DNA from: Chitinophaga pinensis
GTDB lineage: Bacteria; Bacteroidota; Bacteroidia; Chitinophagales; CAIOSU01
NCBI GenBank assembly: GCA_945901065.1
Contig: CAMDKI010000002.1
Location: 248,001-312,000, forward strand
Length of the DNA stretch: 64,000 nucleotides
Reading direction: 5' to 3'
The position numbers and the translations under genes were made by a program. Positions 5,620 through 17,522 of this stretch are shown here, one piece after another; position 1 is the first letter of the stretch, and every line of letters starts with the position of its first letter. Under the pieces are notes generated by a model. It worked only from the letters and a program-made list of their open reading frames with translations. It was not told the DNA's origin and ran no database searches.

Positions 5620-7083
5620 ATGAAAGCTGATTTTCAAGTTGGTATTATCGGTGCAGGTTTTGGTGGCTTGGTGGCTGCCTTGCGCTTGCAAAAGGAAAAC
5701 CGCAACTCTTTTGTGATATTTGAAAGGGCTAGCGAAGTAGGCGGCACTTGGCGTGATAATGTTTATCCTGGCTGTGCTTGCGATGTACCTTCACACCTAT
5801 ACTCTTTTGCCGACGAATTGAATCCCAACTGGAGCCGTGCATTTAGCAAGCAACCCGAGATATTGGAGTATATTAAGCTTGTAGCTGAAAAACACAACCT
5901 TCGCAACAAAATCCGCTTCAACACCGATATTGTTGGCCTAAAATTTATTGAAGAACACGGCCTATGGGAAATAACCGACCAACACGGTATCATCACCCAA
6001 GTGAAGTTGGTTATTTCGGCCACGGGGCCGCTAAATAGGCCCAACACGCCAAAATTCGAAGGCATGGAGCTTTTCCAAGGCAAAGTTTTTCATAGTGCCG
6101 AATGGGACAAAAACTACGACCTGAATGGTAAACGGGTGGCCGTTATTGGCACCGGTGCCAGCAGCATACAAATAGTGCCCAACATTGCGCCTATAGTGGG
6201 GCAACTGACCGTTTTTCAGCGTACGGCAGCTTGGGTGCAAATGCGCCCCGACCATGCTTTCTCAGGCTTTGCAAAAGGGCTGTTCAAGACAGCCCCTGCC
6301 ATTAACAAGTTATATCGAGAGATGATCTACTGGCGAAATGAGTTTTTCGGGAAAGCTTTTGTGGGCAACGAAACCATTAATCGCATTGGGTCAAAACTAT
6401 CGCTTAGGCATTTGAGCAAGCAAGTAAGCGACCCCGAAACCCGCAGAAAGCTAACACCTAACTATAAAATGGGTTGTAAGCGAGTGTTGGTAAGCAACGA
6501 CTACTACCCTGCGTTCAATAGGCTAAATGTAACCCTCGAAACCACCAGCATACAAGAATGGAATGCTAAAGGCATAATAACCGCCGATGGCAGACAACAT
6601 GACTTTGATGCCATAGTGCTGGCTACAGGCTTTGTGGCTGCCGAAATTGAGCTGTACACCACCATTTCGGGCCTAAACAACCGTGACTTGCTGAGCGAAT
6701 GGCGCCAAACTGGCGCACAGGCGTACCGTGGCACCACGGTCTCTGGGTTCCCGAACCTAGCCTTTATTCTGGGGCCCAATACCGGGCTAGGCCATAACTC
6801 AGTAGTGCACATGATGGAAAGCCAGATGAACTACCTAGTAGATTATCTAAAACTTTTAGAGAACCAGGGACCCAATGGCTACTTGGATGTTAAAGCCGAT
6901 GTGCAGGCAAAGCATAACCAACAACTGCAAACCCAATTTGAAGGCACCGTTTGGCAATCGGGGTGCCAAAGTTGGTACTTAAACCGTGAAGGCAAAAACA
7001 CCACACTATACCCGCGGCTAACCGCGCAGTTTAGGAAGGAGCTAAGGCATTTGGATGAGGGTGCGTATGAGTTGGTGGGTTAA
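5620..7083 (+). CDS. Flavin-containing / Baeyer-Villiger-type monooxygenase
   Basis: GAGFGGLVAALRL Rossmann motif, second GTGASSIQIVP motif, and FQGKVFHSAEWD matching the FxGxxxHxxxW(P/D) BVMO fingerprint. Confidence 0.88.
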   Translation: MKADFQVGIIGAGFGGLVAALRLQKENRNSFVIFERASEVGGTWRDNVYPGCACDVPSHLYSFADELNPNWSRAFSKQPEILEYIKLVAEKHNLRNKIRFNTDIVGLKFIEEHGLWEITDQHGIITQVKLVISATGPLNRPNTPKFEGMELFQGKVFHSAEWDKNYDLNGKRVAVIGTGASSIQIVPNIAPIVGQLTVFQRTAAWVQMRPDHAFSGFAKGLFKTAPAINKLYREMIYWRNEFFGKAFVGNETINRIGSKLSLRHLSKQVSDPETRRKLTPNYKMGCKRVLVSNDYYPAFNRLNVTLETTSIQEWNAKGIITADGRQHDFDAIVLATGFVAAEIELYTTISGLNNRDLLSEWRQTGAQAYRGTTVSGFPNLAFILGPNTGLGHNSVVHMMESQMNYLVDYLKLLENQGPNGYLDVKADVQAKHNQQLQTQFEGTVWQSGCQSWYLNREGKNTTLYPRLTAQFRKELRHLDEGAYELVG

Positions 7084-8163: not shown

Positions 8164-8775
8164 TTACATTTTGCTTACCCAAACCAATAAAACCTGTATA
8201 ACGCCAATAAGGAAACCTAGCACAGCGCCGATTAGCTCAATAAACTGGAACTCCTTTTTAAGGATTTCCATTATTAGTTTTTCTAAGGTGATTGGGGAAA
8301 GCAAGGAAACCTTTTGACGCACAATTTTCTCTACATCGAAGGAGCCTTCGAGGTTTTCCATGTATTTATCTATCACTACTGGGGTTACTGACTGTACTTC
8401 TTTCAAAAAATCGCCTTTCATTTTCAATCGGGCCTTTTTTCCCAAAAACATTGACATCATAGGATATTTGGCGGGAAAGGTCTCGTCTAAATACTGGTCA
8501 ACCTTGGCCTCAATGTTTTGGTTAATCGATTCAAGGTTCTTGGGGTCGTTTATGCGGTCTTTAAGGTCACTTACGTTCAATAACTCAGCAGCTACCATTT
8601 TACCAATTTTCTCGGCCATGGCATACTGGCGCTTTGGAAATACGCCTTGAATATCAAAAAAGAGAATGCGAATTTTCTTGCGCGGATGGAAGAGCATCTT
8701 TATGGCTACCCAGTTGGTAAACCAACCTATGGCACCGGCAATTACTGGTAATAAGATGTAAGATAACCACTCCAT
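8164..8775 (-). CDS. DUF445 family membrane protein
   Basis: LLPVIAGAIGWFTNWVAIKMLFHPRKKIRI...GVFPKRQYAMAEKIGKMVA, characteristic DUF445 N-terminus, and a C-terminal TM. Confidence 0.85.
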   Translation of the reverse strand: MEWLSYILLPVIAGAIGWFTNWVAIKMLFHPRKKIRILFFDIQGVFPKRQYAMAEKIGKMVAAELLNVSDLKDRINDPKNLESINQNIEAKVDQYLDETFPAKYPMMSMFLGKKARLKMKGDFLKEVQSVTPVVIDKYMENLEGSFDVEKIVRQKVSLLSPITLEKLIMEILKKEFQFIELIGAVLGFLIGVIQVLLVWVSKM

Positions 8776-8871: not shown

Positions 8872-9597
8872 TTATGCACCCTTGCGTGTGCCCCATGCGA
8901 ATAAGTATTGCGATGATAAGTATGTGCTCATAATAACCAATGGAGCCATACTAAACGGTGTATGGAATTTATTGATGGCTATGTTGCTATCAGAGAACAT
9001 AAACAACAGGGCGCCAGCCAATACCGCGCTATAGCTTGCTGCCGATACTTTACCTTGCCGGTTGATGGCAAAAAGAACCATGGCTGTAATAACAGAAGCA
9101 TAAACTATTACTGGTATCAACATATCGGGCTCTGCTGCATTAATGGCTGGCAACAAAAATGCCAATAAACCAACATAACCTACTAAAACAGGCAATGCCA
9201 GCCAAGGCTTGGTTTTTAATAACGAAGTGTTGGTATTATTAGCGAGGTCTTTTCTGAAAGCTAGCATGTATAATACATGGGTAATAAGGAACGAAACCAA
9301 GCCTGCTAAAAAGAACAATTCTTCGTAAGCTTTAAAATGCTCCAAACGGGGCATCATTAAATTCACATCGCCCGACCAGGAAAAGATAAAACCAACCAAT
9401 ACAAGTTTTTGCACCGAACCTAATGAGCCGCCAGAGGCTTTGTAATAATACCAAATTAATGCAGGCATCAATAGTGCTTTGGTTACCATTGCTGGCAGCA
9501 AAGCTTGTTGCATACCAGCTATCAGCATACCCTCGAATACCAAATGAGTGATGGTAAATACCCAGTACAAAATTGAAAGCGATTTGGCGTTGTTCAT
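8872..9597 (-). CDS. Lysoplasmalogenase (YhhN/TMEM86 family)
   Basis: Multi-TM protein with KALLMPALIWYYY...GFIFSWSGDVNLMM...ISHVLYMLAF-like pattern (here FLITHVLYMLAF) and C-terminal GALLFMFSDSNIAINKF, matching the YhhN family. Confidence 0.85.
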   Translation of the reverse strand: MNNAKSLSILYWVFTITHLVFEGMLIAGMQQALLPAMVTKALLMPALIWYYYKASGGSLGSVQKLVLVGFIFSWSGDVNLMMPRLEHFKAYEELFFLAGLVSFLITHVLYMLAFRKDLANNTNTSLLKTKPWLALPVLVGYVGLLAFLLPAINAAEPDMLIPVIVYASVITAMVLFAINRQGKVSAASYSAVLAGALLFMFSDSNIAINKFHTPFSMAPLVIMSTYLSSQYLFAWGTRKGA

Positions 9598-9601
9598 GGA
9601 A

Positions 9602-10099
9602 TTATATCAGCTTAAATGATTTCACCATCTCTTCAATATTATTGCTATACTTTTCTTTGCGGCGGGTAAGGGTCCAACCTAACACTTGGTAGTAGTGCTC
9701 TTTTCCTTCAACTACTGCTAGGTAGTACCATACCCCCTCATCAGTTATAACACCTTCAATTTTATAACCTAAAGTAGGGGCGCCACTTATTGATATACTG
9801 TCTATTACGTCAATAGTCGAATCTTTTAGCACAGTAGCAATCCTGCTAGAGGCCAATTGGCCATATTCAGCAAGCGAATGTCCTGTTTTGGTGGTATCCA
9901 GCACCAATAGATAAACAGTACGGTATGGGCTTGAATACTGAAAAACCGCTTTAGGATGCAAGTTATCTGCCTCGCTCATGTAATCGGTTACACTAATCTT
10001 AAATCGGCCTGGCACCTCTTTCTCTTCCAACCCTTCTGAGTATTTGCAGCTTGCTATAGTAGCTACCAGCAATAATACCATCCAATATTTTACGCTCAT
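9602..10099 (-). CDS. Putative lipoprotein of unknown function in the ether-lipid operon
   Basis: Signal peptide with lipobox-like LLVATIASCKYS; start overlaps the upstream stop as ATGA. Confidence 0.7.
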   Translation of the reverse strand: MSVKYWMVLLLVATIASCKYSEGLEEKEVPGRFKISVTDYMSEADNLHPKAVFQYSSPYRTVYLLVLDTTKTGHSLAEYGQLASSRIATVLKDSTIDVIDSISISGAPTLGYKIEGVITDEGVWYYLAVVEGKEHYYQVLGWTLTRRKEKYSNNIEEMVKSFKLI

Positions 10100-11088
10100 G
10101 CTGCTTTAGTTTCCGATTTTTGCAACGCCAGCTTTTCGGCGTCTTTATGCGATGGCTTAATGAGGCCCGTGCGTTGCTCCTCCAAATGTAACTGTTTCTG
10201 CAGGAATTTTGCAGTTTGGTTTGGGCCGTTTGGGCTCCAACCTGGAGGATTAACCAACAGTTTTAGTTTGTCTTTAAAGGTTGGCATCCGTTTCAAATCT
10301 TCCCAAATAGAGGCATACTCGTGCGTGGCAATTTTTACGGGGTTATACGTATCAATATTATTAGTGATGCCGTAAATAGGCTCATCTTGGTCTAACTCTT
10401 CTTGGTAAGTGCCAAACATACGGTCCCAGATAATGAGCATACCTGCATGGTTTTTGTCCATGTAGCGCACATTGCTAGCATGGTGCACTCGGTGTGCCGA
10501 AGGGGTGTTAAAAATCCACTCCAAGGGACCCAATTTGCCTACCAGCTCGGTGTGCTGCAAAAACTGGAAAATGAGGCTGAAACTCATCATGGTTAATATC
10601 ATCCATGGCTGAAAACCAACAACGGGCAACCATAGCCAAAAAAAGTATTTGTGAAACAACTCGGTCCAGCTTTGGCGCAACGCAGTAGAGTAATTTAGAT
10701 TGGTGCTACTATGGTGGTTTACATGGGCAGCCCAAAGGATGCGCACTTCGTGACTGAGGCGGTGGTGCCAATAAAAACTTAAATCGTCGGCAAATATCAA
10801 TAATACCCAAACCCACCAAACACTGCCCAATTCGAAAATATGGAAATGGGTGTATAAAAACGTGTAGGCAAAAAACGCGGCGGCTTTCATTACCAAATTA
10901 ACAAACAACGAACCGATGCCCATGGTTACAGAGGCAACACTATCCTTACCATTATATAACTCCCTCGATTGCAAAAAATTGACAACCAACTCTAGTACTA
11001 TGGCCGTAATAAATACCGGAAAGGCATAGAAAATAACCTTATCGGCAGGCTGAAACGAATCGAATATTGATTGTAGTGAACTAAGCAT
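10096..11088 (-). CDS. Fatty acid hydroxylase/sterol desaturase superfamily protein, alkylglycerol monooxygenase-like (short form)
   Basis: Histidine boxes HHRLSHE, HVNHHSS, HRVHHASN; LGPLEWIFNTPSAHRVHH...AGMLIIWDRMFGT...YGITNNIDTYNPVKI...PGWSPNGPN resembles the AGMO core as recalled. Confidence 0.85.
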   Translation of the reverse strand: MLSSLQSIFDSFQPADKVIFYAFPVFITAIVLELVVNFLQSRELYNGKDSVASVTMGIGSLFVNLVMKAAAFFAYTFLYTHFHIFELGSVWWVWVLLIFADDLSFYWHHRLSHEVRILWAAHVNHHSSTNLNYSTALRQSWTELFHKYFFWLWLPVVGFQPWMILTMMSFSLIFQFLQHTELVGKLGPLEWIFNTPSAHRVHHASNVRYMDKNHAGMLIIWDRMFGTYQEELDQDEPIYGITNNIDTYNPVKIATHEYASIWEDLKRMPTFKDKLKLLVNPPGWSPNGPNQTAKFLQKQLHLEEQRTGLIKPSHKDAEKLALQKSETKAA

Positions 11089-12364
11089 TGGCTACTGCAG
11101 ACTCCTCTTCTGCTCGCTTTAAAATATTATGGTAAGGTATTAACCAAGCAAACGAAATTAATGCAACGATGGGCACAACAATGGTTACCGCTAGCGGATT
11201 AACTGCGGATTGCAAAGCCAAAATAGCCGCAGGCACCGTAACTATTAACCGAAACAACTCCATAAAAAATGCCCAACGCTTATTTTCCAGCAAACCTCCT
11301 AAAGTGACCAGAGTTATTACTATTAACAATGCAAACGCCAATTTGGTTAACCACTCAAGATTTTCGGCCACTAACAAATAACCTGTAGCGCCAGCCAATA
11401 GCAACACAAACTGAAAAAAGATGTAATAAGCCAAACCAATGGCAATGCTCGTATCGTACTTTTGGAAACTTTGGGGGGTTACCTCTTTAAAGGGCTGCAC
11501 GCCACCTAGGTAGTCGGGTTTCCAACCTGGTTTCAACATCAGCATTTTAACCGCATCCTTCAAGTTGCGCGCTTTGGCAACGTCTTTAAAAAGTCCGCCC
11601 CAATATTCAAAATTCAACCACAGTGGGTTCCAGCTCTTGGGTTGGCCTGTGATACCAAACACCACTTCCTCCTCTTCTACTTGAAAAGTACCGAACATGC
11701 GGTCGAAAACAATAAAAGTTCCGCCATGGTTACGGTCAATATATTTAGGGTTTACGCCATGGTGCACCCTGTGGTGGCTAGGCGTATTCAATACGTATTC
11801 GAACCATGCGGGCATTCGGTCAATGGCTTTGGTATGAATCCAAAACTGGTAAAGCGTTTGAAAAGAGCCAACGGTAAGAAACATTACAGGCTCGAAACCC
11901 ATGATGGCCAAAGGCAGATAAAACACCCACGAGAAAGCACCCTGCAACCAAGCCTGGCGCAATGCAACCGTAAGATTATACTCTTCGCTCTGGTGGTGCA
12001 CTACATGGCTGCCCCAAAGCACACTTATCTCGTGTGCCAAGCGATGAAACCAATAATAGAAAAAATCGACCCCTACGAATAATAAGCTAAAGGTAAGTAC
12101 TACCGCCCAAGTGGGAGCACCCGTATCGAAACCGGGTAGCGTAAACAATCGGAAATGCTTGTACAGGTATAGATAGCCAACAAAAACAAACAACTTTAAA
12201 AATACACCGCTCACCTGGGAGCCTATGCCTAAGCTAAGGTTTGATATGGCATCGTTGAAACGGTAATAGTTTGTTTTGCGCAGGCGGTCAAACAGTAGCT
12301 CTATCCCTATCAACAGGAAGAACACTGGTATTGCCAAAACAATGTAACTTACCGCCTTATCCAT
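11081..12364 (-). CDS. Fatty acid hydroxylase/sterol desaturase superfamily protein, alkylglycerol monooxygenase-like (long form with C-terminal TM bundle)
   Basis: YYWFHRLAHE, HVVHHQSEEYNLTVALRQAW, LNTPSHHRVHHGVNPKYIDRNHGGTFIVFDRMFGTF, PGWKPDYLGG; extra C-terminal TM helices as in full-length AGMO. Confidence 0.87.
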   Translation of the reverse strand: MDKAVSYIVLAIPVFFLLIGIELLFDRLRKTNYYRFNDAISNLSLGIGSQVSGVFLKLFVFVGYLYLYKHFRLFTLPGFDTGAPTWAVVLTFSLLFVGVDFFYYWFHRLAHEISVLWGSHVVHHQSEEYNLTVALRQAWLQGAFSWVFYLPLAIMGFEPVMFLTVGSFQTLYQFWIHTKAIDRMPAWFEYVLNTPSHHRVHHGVNPKYIDRNHGGTFIVFDRMFGTFQVEEEEVVFGITGQPKSWNPLWLNFEYWGGLFKDVAKARNLKDAVKMLMLKPGWKPDYLGGVQPFKEVTPQSFQKYDTSIAIGLAYYIFFQFVLLLAGATGYLLVAENLEWLTKLAFALLIVITLVTLGGLLENKRWAFFMELFRLIVTVPAAILALQSAVNPLAVTIVVPIVALISFAWLIPYHNILKRAEEESAVANA

Positions 12365-14198: not shown

Positions 14199-14705
14199 TT
14201 ATTGCTCTTTTGCTGGTTTTTGCACTTTTGCCTTCGGAGCTTTTGCAACCTCAACCCTAAGACCAAATGCCATTACATCGGCCAAATCATCGGTGCGCAT
14301 AATTTGCTCGAAAGCAAGTTTGTAGGTTCCAAGTTGGTTGAAGAAAACCCGCTGCTGAATGTATTGCTGCACGGTACAAATATCGCCAGTGCAATCGCCA
14401 AACCATTGGCCTTTTTCGTCGGCCAAAGTTAGTTGCAAACGTTGTTGCTGAACCGTGTCGTTAGGATAAGTGGTATACACCATTACCCATAAGTTACTGT
14501 TCGGGTAAAAGGTAGTATGGCGTAGATTGACCAATATATCGTAAAACTGGGTTGTATCGCTAATATCGAAGCTAAACTCGACCATATGGTCTTTGTTCCA
14601 TACCTGGTTCGGAATATCGTGGTTCTCTTCAAACACCTTTGCTGGGTCATCGCACCCGACCCAAAAGCTAGCAGCCACTATCATCAAAAACGCTAAGTAT
14701 CTCAT
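14199..14705 (-). CDS. gldH: Gliding motility lipoprotein GldH
   Basis: Lipobox FWVGCDD; NQVWNKDHMVEFSFDISDTTQFYDILVNLRHTTFYPNSNLWVMVYTTYPND...DIC...FNQLGTYKLAFEQIMR is GldH-like; located next to ricT/holB. Confidence 0.88.
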   Translation of the reverse strand: MRYLAFLMIVAASFWVGCDDPAKVFEENHDIPNQVWNKDHMVEFSFDISDTTQFYDILVNLRHTTFYPNSNLWVMVYTTYPNDTVQQQRLQLTLADEKGQWFGDCTGDICTVQQYIQQRVFFNQLGTYKLAFEQIMRTDDLADVMAFGLRVEVAKAPKAKVQKPAKEQ

Positions 14706-16180
14706 GCTGCGTCTCCTCCTCCTTGGTTGTTACCACCTTCGCCACCACCACGGTTGCGGTTGCCCCTGTTACGGTTGCGCCCACCTCGGTTGCGGTTTGC
14801 ACCGCCTTCTCTAGGCTTACCATCGCCAGCCGAGCTATTAGCAGGGCCTTGTGGCTTTGGTGTTTCGCTACCTTCTGTGTTGGGTTTCTGCTCACCAGTT
14901 GGCCTAGACCTATCGCGTTGTTGGTTTCGGTTATTCGGTTGTCCTTCGCCTCGGTTGCGCTGCTGTGCTCCTCCACCTTGTGGCTGTGCACCACCTTCAC
15001 GTGGAGCGCCTTGTTGTGGTCTTCCCTCACGAGATTCGCCACCGCCGCCGCCTTTTTTCTTTTTCTTACGCTTCTTGCCTGTTTTTTCAAGGGTGCTGAG
15101 GGTTATTTGGCCAACAGTATCGGCATAATCCTGTTCAACTTCTTCCTCTTCTACTTCCTCTACTATTACTATTTGCCCTAGTGGCTGACCTTTCTTGCCA
15201 TTCTCGTTCAGCTCTATAATATCGGCAACTTGCTCAACCGTTAGTGGGTAAAACGTTGGGTCGCCAGCGTAAGTATACCACATTAGGCGTTTAAGTATAT
15301 CGGTTTTCATCAAGAAAACCACACCTGTTTCGGTTTCAAGCTTTTCTGCCTTTTTAGGGAAATCTTGAAGGGCCTCCATGTACATATCCAACTCATAGTT
15401 CAAGCAGCATTTCAAACGACCACATTGGCCTGATAGCTTAGCTAGATTGATGGACAGGTTTTGGTAGCGGGCAGCGTTGGTTGATACCGATTTGAAATCG
15501 GTTAACCAGGTTGAGCAGCATAGCTCCCTTCCGCACGAACCAATGCCCCCTATTTTGGCAGCTTCTTGTCGGGCACCAATCTGGCGCATCTCAATTTTCA
15601 CCTTAAACTCACGGGCGTACTCTTTAATCAACTCCCTAAAATCCACACGGTCTTCGGCAGTATAGTAAAAAGTTGCTTTCTTTTTGTCGGCTTGAAACTC
15701 CACTTGGCCTATTTTCATATCTAGTTTCAAGGCACGAGTAATAGCGCGGGCACGCACCATAGTTTCTTGCTCAAGGGCTTTAGCCTCCTTCATCAAATCA
15801 AACTCGGTATCGTTGGCCAAGCGCAATATGTTCTTAAAATCAGCATTGCGCTCCTTAACTTTCTTTTTGCGCATTTGCAGCTTTACCAACTCGCCAGACA
15901 AGGAAATTTGACCAATATCGTAACCCATTGACGTATCAACCACCACCCAATCGCTGGTATGCACGGGTACTTTTTGGTCGTTTTTGAAAAACTCTTTGCG
16001 ACTACCTCCATTGAAGGTTATCTCGTAATACTCAGGACCTTCTTGGCTTCCGAATGCTATAGGCATCTCGGCCAACCAATCGAAAGTATTCATCATATTG
16101 CAAGCGCCACTGGCACAACTGCCATGCGACTTACAACCCTTCGGTAATCCATTATCTGTGGCACAACTGGTGCATCCCAT
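14702..16180 (-). CDS. ricT: PSP1-domain protein, RicT/YaaT-like, with Arg/Gly-rich C-terminal tail
   Basis: GGIGSCGRELCCSTWL...LSINLAKLSGQCGRLKCCLNYE is the RicT/PSP1 signature; tail ANRNRGGRNRNRGNRNRGGGEGG. Confidence 0.9.
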   Translation of the reverse strand: MGCTSCATDNGLPKGCKSHGSCASGACNMMNTFDWLAEMPIAFGSQEGPEYYEITFNGGSRKEFFKNDQKVPVHTSDWVVVDTSMGYDIGQISLSGELVKLQMRKKKVKERNADFKNILRLANDTEFDLMKEAKALEQETMVRARAITRALKLDMKIGQVEFQADKKKATFYYTAEDRVDFRELIKEYAREFKVKIEMRQIGARQEAAKIGGIGSCGRELCCSTWLTDFKSVSTNAARYQNLSINLAKLSGQCGRLKCCLNYELDMYMEALQDFPKKAEKLETETGVVFLMKTDILKRLMWYTYAGDPTFYPLTVEQVADIIELNENGKKGQPLGQIVIVEEVEEEEVEQDYADTVGQITLSTLEKTGKKRKKKKKGGGGGESREGRPQQGAPREGGAQPQGGGAQQRNRGEGQPNNRNQQRDRSRPTGEQKPNTEGSETPKPQGPANSSAGDGKPREGGANRNRGGRNRNRGNRNRGGGEGGNNQGGGDAA

Positions 16181-16211
16181 AATTTATATTTTATGTACGA
16201 TTTGAAAATTT

Positions 16212-16234
16212 GAAAATGTGCTAATTTGAAAATG
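16212..16234. repeat. Dispersed repeat family A (reverse-complement copy)
   Basis: GAAAATGTGCTAATTTGAAAATG is the exact reverse complement of 7132..7154. Confidence 0.8.
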
Positions 16235-16391
16235 GTATTACCATTCAAAGCAACTAAAAGTCAAAATTTCAAATCATAATCCTTCTTAAAACAATAAAAC
16301 CTATTCAGTGAATGGCAAATTCATTTTCAAATTGCCTTATTTTCCAATTCGCAACATCATTTCCAAATTTCCAAATTATCTCATTTTCAAA

Positions 16392-17522
16392 CTAAACTGC
16401 GGCATTCTGCGGTTTCACCAGCTTGGTTAACCTAATACTCAAATCGAGCATGAGTATTTTGCCGCTAGCGTTGCGCTCTATGTGATAATAAGCATCGTTG
16501 AGCCAATCGGCCAAACGAGCCATTTTTTCTTGATTGAATTTACCCGCCATATCCCCTACCACATTCTTTTCGCTACCGATAAGCACGTCCGATGGTTTGC
16601 CATAAACCTGCAAGTGCAATACCTCGCGCAGTATGTGCAGCGCATATACCATAAAAGATTTTTGCGCTTCGCGGCCCAAAGCACCAAATGTATCGGCCCA
16701 GCGAACGTGCGCCATTGGGTCGACATTGCGGCTCAATATGGCTTCCATCCATTGCTCAAACAGCTCGGCATGCTCGCCTGCCGAATGGTTTATCAAATCT
16801 AAGGCCTCAATATAGTCACCATTGGCCAAACCAGCAATTCGGTAAGCCTCATCCGGTTGCAATTGTTGCAAATTGACCAAGGCATCGGCCAACTGTTGCT
16901 GCTCAATGGGTGCAATTTTAATAATTTGCGTGCGCGAAATAATGGTACTTAATACGGTCTCCAAATTCTCGGCGACTAGCAAGAAAACCGTTTGAGCAGG
17001 CGGTTCTTCCAATATTTTAAGAAGTGTATTGCCCTCTTTGCCTAAATACTCGGGCAGCCAAATAAGCATTATTTTATAACCCTGCTCGTATGCCTTGAAA
17101 CTCAGCCTGCGCATTACATCATGGCATTCGGTTATCGGTATGTTGGGCTGTTTGTTTTCGGCATTGAATTTCACCATCCAGCGGTGCAAACTCAAGTAAG
17201 GGCTTTGGTTTAGTACTTCGCGCCATTCGGTAATGCTTTCGGTACTTATTTTGCGCTTCTCAACACTCGGAAAAGGGAAGCTAAAGTGCAAATCAGGGTG
17301 CGCCAACTTTTGCATTTTAAGGCAGCTTGGGCACTCGCCACAGCTATCCTCAAGCTGGGGGTTTACGCAGTTTAGGTATTGGGCATAGGCCAATGCAATA
17401 GGTAAACCACCAAAACCCAATGGCCCCAAAAACATTTGGGCATGGGGCACATGGCCTTCGCGCACCGAAGAGGTGAGTTGCTGCTTTAAGTGGCCCTGGC
17501 CGATGATGTCTTTAAACTGCAT
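16392..17522 (-). CDS. holB: DNA polymerase III delta' subunit
   Basis: FKDIIGQGHLKQQL...HAQMFLGPLGFGGLPIALAYAQYLNC...CGECPSCLKMQKLAHPDLHF...EGNTLLKILEEPPAQTVFLLV...ISRTQIIKI. Confidence 0.92.
   Translation of the reverse strand: MQFKDIIGQGHLKQQLTSSVREGHVPHAQMFLGPLGFGGLPIALAYAQYLNCVNPQLEDSCGECPSCLKMQKLAHPDLHFSFPFPSVEKRKISTESITEWREVLNQSPYLSLHRWMVKFNAENKQPNIPITECHDVMRRLSFKAYEQGYKIMLIWLPEYLGKEGNTLLKILEEPPAQTVFLLVAENLETVLSTIISRTQIIKIAPIEQQQLADALVNLQQLQPDEAYRIAGLANGDYIEALDLINHSAGEHAELFEQWMEAILSRNVDPMAHVRWADTFGALGREAQKSFMVYALHILREVLHLQVYGKPSDVLIGSEKNVVGDMAGKFNQEKMARLADWLNDAYYHIERNASGKILMLDLSIRLTKLVKPQNAAV

Follow-up and report, generated by a model that had tools for sequence, protein, structure and literature searches.

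Why should a member of the Chitinophagales carry, in one tight group of genes, relatives of two enzyme families that cleave ether lipids? The question is raised by a 64,000-nucleotide stretch of the Chitinophaga pinensis assembly GCA_945901065.1 (contig CAMDKI010000002.1, positions 248,001 to 312,000; hereafter the window), in which four genes encode two relatives of alkylglycerol monooxygenase (AGMO1 and AGMO2), a small lipoprotein and a YhhN/TMEM86-family protein (Table 1). Our sequence comparisons suggest that the group is probably a bacterial module that cleaves ether-linked lysolipids. The AGMO proteins, as membrane di-iron monooxygenases, would hydroxylate 1-O-alkyl lysolipids or alkylglycerols at the ether carbon with the help of O2 and a tetrahydropterin, and the resulting hemiacetal would break down to a fatty aldehyde and a glycerol head; YhhN, whose family cuts vinyl-ether lipids, would serve the second kind of substrate. 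With both enzymes, an aerobic bacterium would be able to detoxify alkyl- and vinyl-ether lysolipids from its surroundings and also to use them, and the apparently PsbP-like lipoprotein might pass substrate on in the periplasm. A hemiacetal of the same type arises in vinyl-ether hydration and in alkyl-ether hydroxylation, which may be the reason for the pairing, and even fusion, of the two activities.

Both hydroxylases matched the FA_hydroxylase domain of Pfam (98.5 bits for AGMO1 and 93 bits for AGMO2). AGMO1 carries an eight-histidine motif (H107, H111, H120, H123, H124, H198, H201 and H202) together with the pterin-contact glutamate (E112), AGMO2 keeps all eight histidines and the glutamate (E114), and the eight histidines are invariant in all 133 aligned rows. 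In human AGMO this glutamate (E137) lies beside the second motif histidine and interacts with pterin, and it is said to be missing from other FA-hydroxylase proteins (PMC3617469). When residues were mapped onto the published key residues of human AGMO (PMC3617469; PMC7911779), AGMO1 retained 14 of 16, namely the motif histidines, E112, Q137, H177, D210, N212 and D221. Equivalents of human E137, Q162, H201, D233, N235 and D244 are present in both proteins; within the set Q162, H201, D233, N235, Y236, W243 and D244, AGMO1 keeps five of seven (Y236 is replaced by H213 and W243 by F220) and AGMO2 six of seven (Y236 is replaced by H214). The human sequence used for the mapping is a lead and no database record; its length of 445 residues and its residues at all published positions agree with the literature. 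Identity to this sequence was 35% over 378 residues for AGMO1 and 38% over 288 residues for AGMO2.

Furthermore, AGMO1 ends in four C-terminal helices. The corresponding Pfam model, AGMP_C (PF24858), matched AGMO1 at 22.1 bits (E 1.5e-4), under its cut-off of 28.3 bits, and matched 15 of the 23 members of the AGMO1 family alignment with a best E of 4e-9, while Pfam gave no AGMP_C match in AGMO2. AGMO1 and AGMO2 are like animal AGMO (TMEM195, EC 1.14.16.5) in their FA_hydroxylase core, eight-histidine motif, pterin glutamate and equivalents of Q162, H201, D233, N235 and D244, and AGMO1 is probably also like it in having a C-terminal domain with four additional membrane helices. They are unlike it in being bacterial, in having histidine in place of Y236 and, in AGMO1, phenylalanine in place of W243, in the missing C-terminal domain of AGMO2 and in being co-encoded with, or elsewhere fused to, YhhN. 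The AlphaFold model of AGMO1 was confident (pLDDT 92.6, pTM 0.90); a fold search with this model against the PDB returned nothing at E < 0.8, and sequence searches of the PDB gave no useful match. AGMO2 formed its own fully supported clade in the AGMO tree. The genome also encodes a third AGMO-type paralogue (G000:C1:458546-459724, L001), 44% identical to AGMO1, and holds six FA_hydroxylase-family loci in total.

Two other identities were considered for the hydroxylases. The ornithine-lipid hydroxylase OlsE (NF052566) was the sole NCBIfam match of both proteins; it belongs to the same FA_hydroxylase superfamily, but the scores of 56.2 and 64.0 bits lie far under the 475-bit cut-off and the weak similarity is limited to the core. 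The plasmanylethanolamine desaturase CarF/PEDS1 is likewise a related histidine-rich membrane enzyme that acts on the same ether-linked carbon; however, its model, PF10520, matched neither AGMO1 nor AGMO2, its role is in synthesis rather than cleavage, and it is absent from this genome. Together, these results speak for AGMO, and against CarF and the OlsE-type hydroxylases, as the family of both proteins. An initial annotation of the window had called them AGMO-like on the strength of His-box and AGMO-like motifs, which are indeed present.

The fourth protein matched the YhhN family (PF07947) at 136.1 bits, against a cut-off of 25.6 bits, and carries all eight residues that have been tested by mutagenesis in TMEM86 (K40, G76, D77, H107, G195, S202, D203 and Y226). 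In TMEM86A/B, alanine mutants of the corresponding K, G-D, H, G, S-D and Y residues all altered activity except that of the first glycine (PMC11994398), and YhhN proteins of Legionella and Mycobacterium tuberculosis are proven lysoplasmalogenases (PMC9052158). The earlier placement in the YhhN/TMEM86 family of lysoplasmalogenases is upheld. The protein is like TMEM86A/B, Legionella YhhN and M. tuberculosis Rv1401 in its full PF07947 domain and in all eight tested residues; unlike them, it adjoins AGMO, or is fused to it in other bacteria, and its genome belongs to no known pathogen and lacks the known markers of plasmalogen synthesis.

These data bear on an alternative that we consider unlikely, in which the hydroxylases act, as OlsE does, on head groups or acyl chains of the cell's own lipids (ornithine, glycine or sulfono-lipids), and the substrate of YhhN is a related lysolipid that has no ether bond. 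In favour of this alternative, unusual amino lipids are produced by Bacteroidota, and OlsE is the only NCBIfam family reached by either protein. In addition, many YhhN-bearing bacteria produce no plasmalogens (PMC9052158). However, apart from the distance of both scores from the OlsE cut-off, members of the AGMO1 family match the model of the C-terminal domain of AGMO and carry residues specific to AGMO, and the YhhN-family proteins characterised in PMC9052158 and PMC11994398 cleave lysoplasmalogens.

The association of the two families extends well beyond this locus. Among the best 80 AGMO loci in named genomes, 15 had YhhN within the flank, 13 of them directly adjacent and one as a fusion. 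Adjacent pairs occurred in Pedobacter species, a Chryseobacterium metagenome-assembled genome, Flavobacteriales, Cytophagales, other Bacteroidota and, in reversed order, Dyella japonica (Pseudomonadota), and the fusion is an in-frame AGMO-YhhN protein of Acidovorax radicis (L155); linkage is seen in Chitinophagales, Sphingobacteriales, Flavobacteriales, Cytophagales and Pseudomonadota. We also surveyed 400 Burkholderiales genomes, 22 of which had a YhhN match. Of the 15 of these YhhN loci that were examined, six, in as many genomes and with L155 among them, encode AGMO and YhhN as one in-frame fusion, and two have the genes side by side. One fusion protein, examined closely, kept all 16 AGMO residues, Y236 and W243 included, and a complete YhhN domain in Pfam; searched against plasmids, it gave matches to AGMO halves only and none at full length. 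In a sample of 199 Bacteroidota genomes, AGMO was present in 48, YhhN in 43 and both in 35, compared to about 10 expected if they were independent (Fisher p ~1e-20, a value that ignores kinship). The two genes were adjacent in 10 of these 35 genomes, our own counted, where we estimate about 0.04 by chance. When neighbours at 36 linked loci were clustered, AGMO and YhhN alone recurred across contexts; the next was the lipoprotein, at seven loci of the Chitinophagales, and no other recurrent operon member, such as an aldehyde dehydrogenase, was seen among them. On a FastTree phylogeny of AGMO, in which some rows have long branches and the human row is uncertainly placed, linkage requires 10 changes. 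Conserved linkage with YhhN had been named beforehand as a test of the proposed operon, and it emerges strongly, including as fused genes.

It is accordingly highly improbable that the neighbourhood reflects chance or inherited synteny with no functional meaning. The same holB-yaaT-gldH block stands beside the operon in distant Chitinophagales families, so that linkage is in part vertical inheritance, and in 25 of the 35 Bacteroidota genomes with both families the genes are not adjacent. Against this, linkage occurs across orders and phyla, in both gene orders and in unrelated neighbourhoods, and far more often than estimated for chance; recurrence and fusion together rule out chance adjacency, and because AGMO-YhhN fusions exist, a synteny devoid of function is essentially refuted.

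The lysolipids cleaved by such a module could come from the cell itself or from outside. Across a near-relative comparison of 61 genomes, PF10520 had no match in our genome or in any but one of the 61, and PF09989 (DUF2229), which we take to be the domain tied to the anaerobic plasmalogen enzyme PlsA, had none in any of the 61. Plasmalogens are held to be absent from aerobic bacteria other than myxobacteria (PMC9131029). Because both markers are absent and aerobic non-myxobacteria are held to be free of plasmalogens, acquired ether lysolipids are likelier substrates than the cell's own plasmalogens, and a plasmalogen made by the cell's own CarF was rejected as substrate as the marker is absent from the genome. 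The initial annotation had proposed an ether-lipid salvage and plasmalogen degradation pathway, a reading that is upheld in part; plasmalogen degradation is disfavoured if it is taken to mean the breakdown of plasmalogens that the cell itself has made. The sole PF10520 homologue in the comparison (G049:C38:401839-402303, L157) lies in a genome of the same order, in which genes of the AGMO type and YhhN are present as well. As for the cofactor, a genome search of the kind that had been suggested found a homologue of pterin-dependent aromatic hydroxylases (PF00351) in our genome and pterin-4a-carbinolamine dehydratase (PF01329) in 54 of the 61 genomes, our own included, so that a pterin route in this genome appears plausible.

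Several observations weigh against cleavage of ether lysolipids by this module. The open-access literature searched yielded no measured activity of a bacterial AGMO homologue. Most Bacteroidota members have histidine where the human enzyme has the essential Y236, and at the position of W243 AGMO1 has phenylalanine and AGMO2 tryptophan. Genes for a transporter, a phospholipase A or an aldehyde dehydrogenase are missing from the operon, and the separation of AGMO and YhhN in 25 of 35 genomes also counts here. The marker search covered plasmalogen synthesis, with endogenous alkyl-ether routes (AGPS and ElbD types) outside it, and several operon carriers have no PF00351. Finally, the pterin glutamate is kept in only 17 of the 34 YhhN-linked AGMO rows, which include duplicate AGMO2 fragments; it is replaced by glutamine (mostly in Pedobacter- and Flavobacteriaceae-type members), valine, threonine or glycine, with the eight histidines unchanged. 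Some members of the linked family may therefore differ in the way they use a pterin.

The altered glutamate also leaves room for altered chemistry, and hence for the idea, improbable in our judgement, that the enzymes act in sequence, with the AGMO-like protein producing a hemiacetal or vinyl ether from an alkyl lysolipid and YhhN resolving this product to an aldehyde and a glycerol head. In-frame fusion, tight coupling and the hemiacetal common to both reactions would suit such a sequence. On the other hand, human AGMO is not known to require a partner for aldehyde release, fusion would also suit two reactions that run in parallel and share the handling of the aldehyde, and AGMO and YhhN each occur alone too. 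In a stronger form, which we regard as quite unlikely, the two would constitute one substrate-channelling ether-cleavage machine, fused in Burkholderiales, in which YhhN takes the product of the AGMO-like enzyme: the hemiacetal or, should those linked AGMO-like enzymes that have lost the pterin glutamate be desaturases, a vinyl ether. If true, this would be a two-step cleavage of alkyl ethers unlike the animal route, and it would explain lysoplasmalogenases in plasmalogen-free bacteria.

For the parallel cleavage of ether lysolipids that we favour, what is new is the bacterial pairing and fusion of two ether-lipid-cleaving families; both families, and the activity of bacterial YhhN, were already known. 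No paper on a bacterial AGMO or on an AGMO-YhhN operon or fusion was found in open-access PMC, in agreement with the initial annotation, to whose author no described bacterial operon of this type was known. Many microbes encode a lysoplasmalogenase yet cannot make plasmalogens, and its substrate has been asked about (PMC9052158). The recurrent operon and the fusion with AGMO offer a testable answer, that the substrates are ether lysolipids generally. Furthermore, AGMO has been treated as an animal enzyme (PMC3617469; PMC7911779), while our data reveal that it also has a large family in bacteria. Its cultivable members might be of use in the study of an enzyme which has resisted purification and for which no solved structure was matched by sequence or fold.

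Within the window, the four genes and their open reading frames are exactly as the initial annotation described them: AGMO1 and AGMO2 overlap by 8 nt, AGMO2 and the lipoprotein gene by 4 nt (ATGA), and a 4-nt gap precedes YhhN. All four are real genes under purifying selection, with ratios of non-synonymous to synonymous substitution (dN/dS) relative to the congener G003 of 0.096 for AGMO1, 0.041 for AGMO2, 0.158 for the lipoprotein and 0.044 for YhhN. Scans for promoters and terminators gave no excess over shuffled sequences.

Among the 61 genomes, the four-gene order is intact in the genus members G001, G003 and G004, while in G002 the contig stops inside the lipoprotein gene. The complete order also occurs in G021, of a different family, where YhhN (L164:5648-6184) is without its N-terminal third, including the catalytic lysine and Gly-Asp, through either decay or an assembly error. 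Partial orders are AGMO1-AGMO2-lipoprotein (G005), AGMO1-AGMO2 and lipoprotein-YhhN on two contigs (G019), lipoprotein-YhhN (G026 and G039) and a lipoprotein gene adjoining an AGMO-like gene (G032 and G057); G059, G035, G008, G013 and G055 have just AGMO and YhhN as a pair. The position of the lipoprotein beside AGMO2 or YhhN is conserved in relatives, and its proposed membership of the module holds only within the Chitinophagales. The window protein reached PsbP-type Pfam models only under the cut-off (E 0.045), while two relatives matched PsbP_2 (PF18933; best E 1.7e-7) and five of 11 matched PsbP. Its single-sequence fold (pLDDT 36) was too poor for use.

Table 1. Features of the operon, its surroundings and the Burkholderiales loci (window positions unless a locus is named)
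Feature	Position	Strand	Description
AGMO1	11081-12364	minus	427 aa; AGMO-family di-iron membrane monooxygenase (predicted), catalytic core and C-terminal 4-helix membrane domain
FA_hydroxylase domain of AGMO1	11687-12085	minus	aa 94-226; Pfam and residue mapping
AGMP_C-like C-terminal domain of AGMO1	11189-11431	minus	aa 312-392; PF24858
AGMO2	10096-11088	minus	330 aa; short AGMO-like paralogue, catalytic core only
Lipoprotein	9602-10099	minus	165 aa; small, putatively PsbP-like, lipobox ...IASC-18
YhhN	8872-9597	minus	241 aa; YhhN/TMEM86-family lysoplasmalogenase by family
DUF445 membrane protein	8164-8775		after YhhN, as in genus members seen (L161-L163)
FMO-like monooxygenase	5620-7083		flavin-dependent, Baeyer-Villiger type
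gldH, PSP1/YaaT-like and holB-like block	14199-17522		block also adjoins the operon in G005 and G021, of distant families
Burkholderiales in-frame fusions	L155:5947-7809; L189; L193; L195; L199; L200		AGMO-YhhN
Burkholderiales overlapping neighbours	L191; L196		AGMO and YhhN

The gene upstream of AGMO1 is 121 bp distant, and on the other side the DUF445 gene starts 96 bp past YhhN and could be on the operon transcript. The FMO-like gene is near the operon both here and in G004; the top NCBIfam relative of its product is pentalenolactone D synthase, with a score far under the cut-off. The recurrence of the holB-yaaT-gldH neighbourhood suggests that this is an old chromosomal position of the operon.

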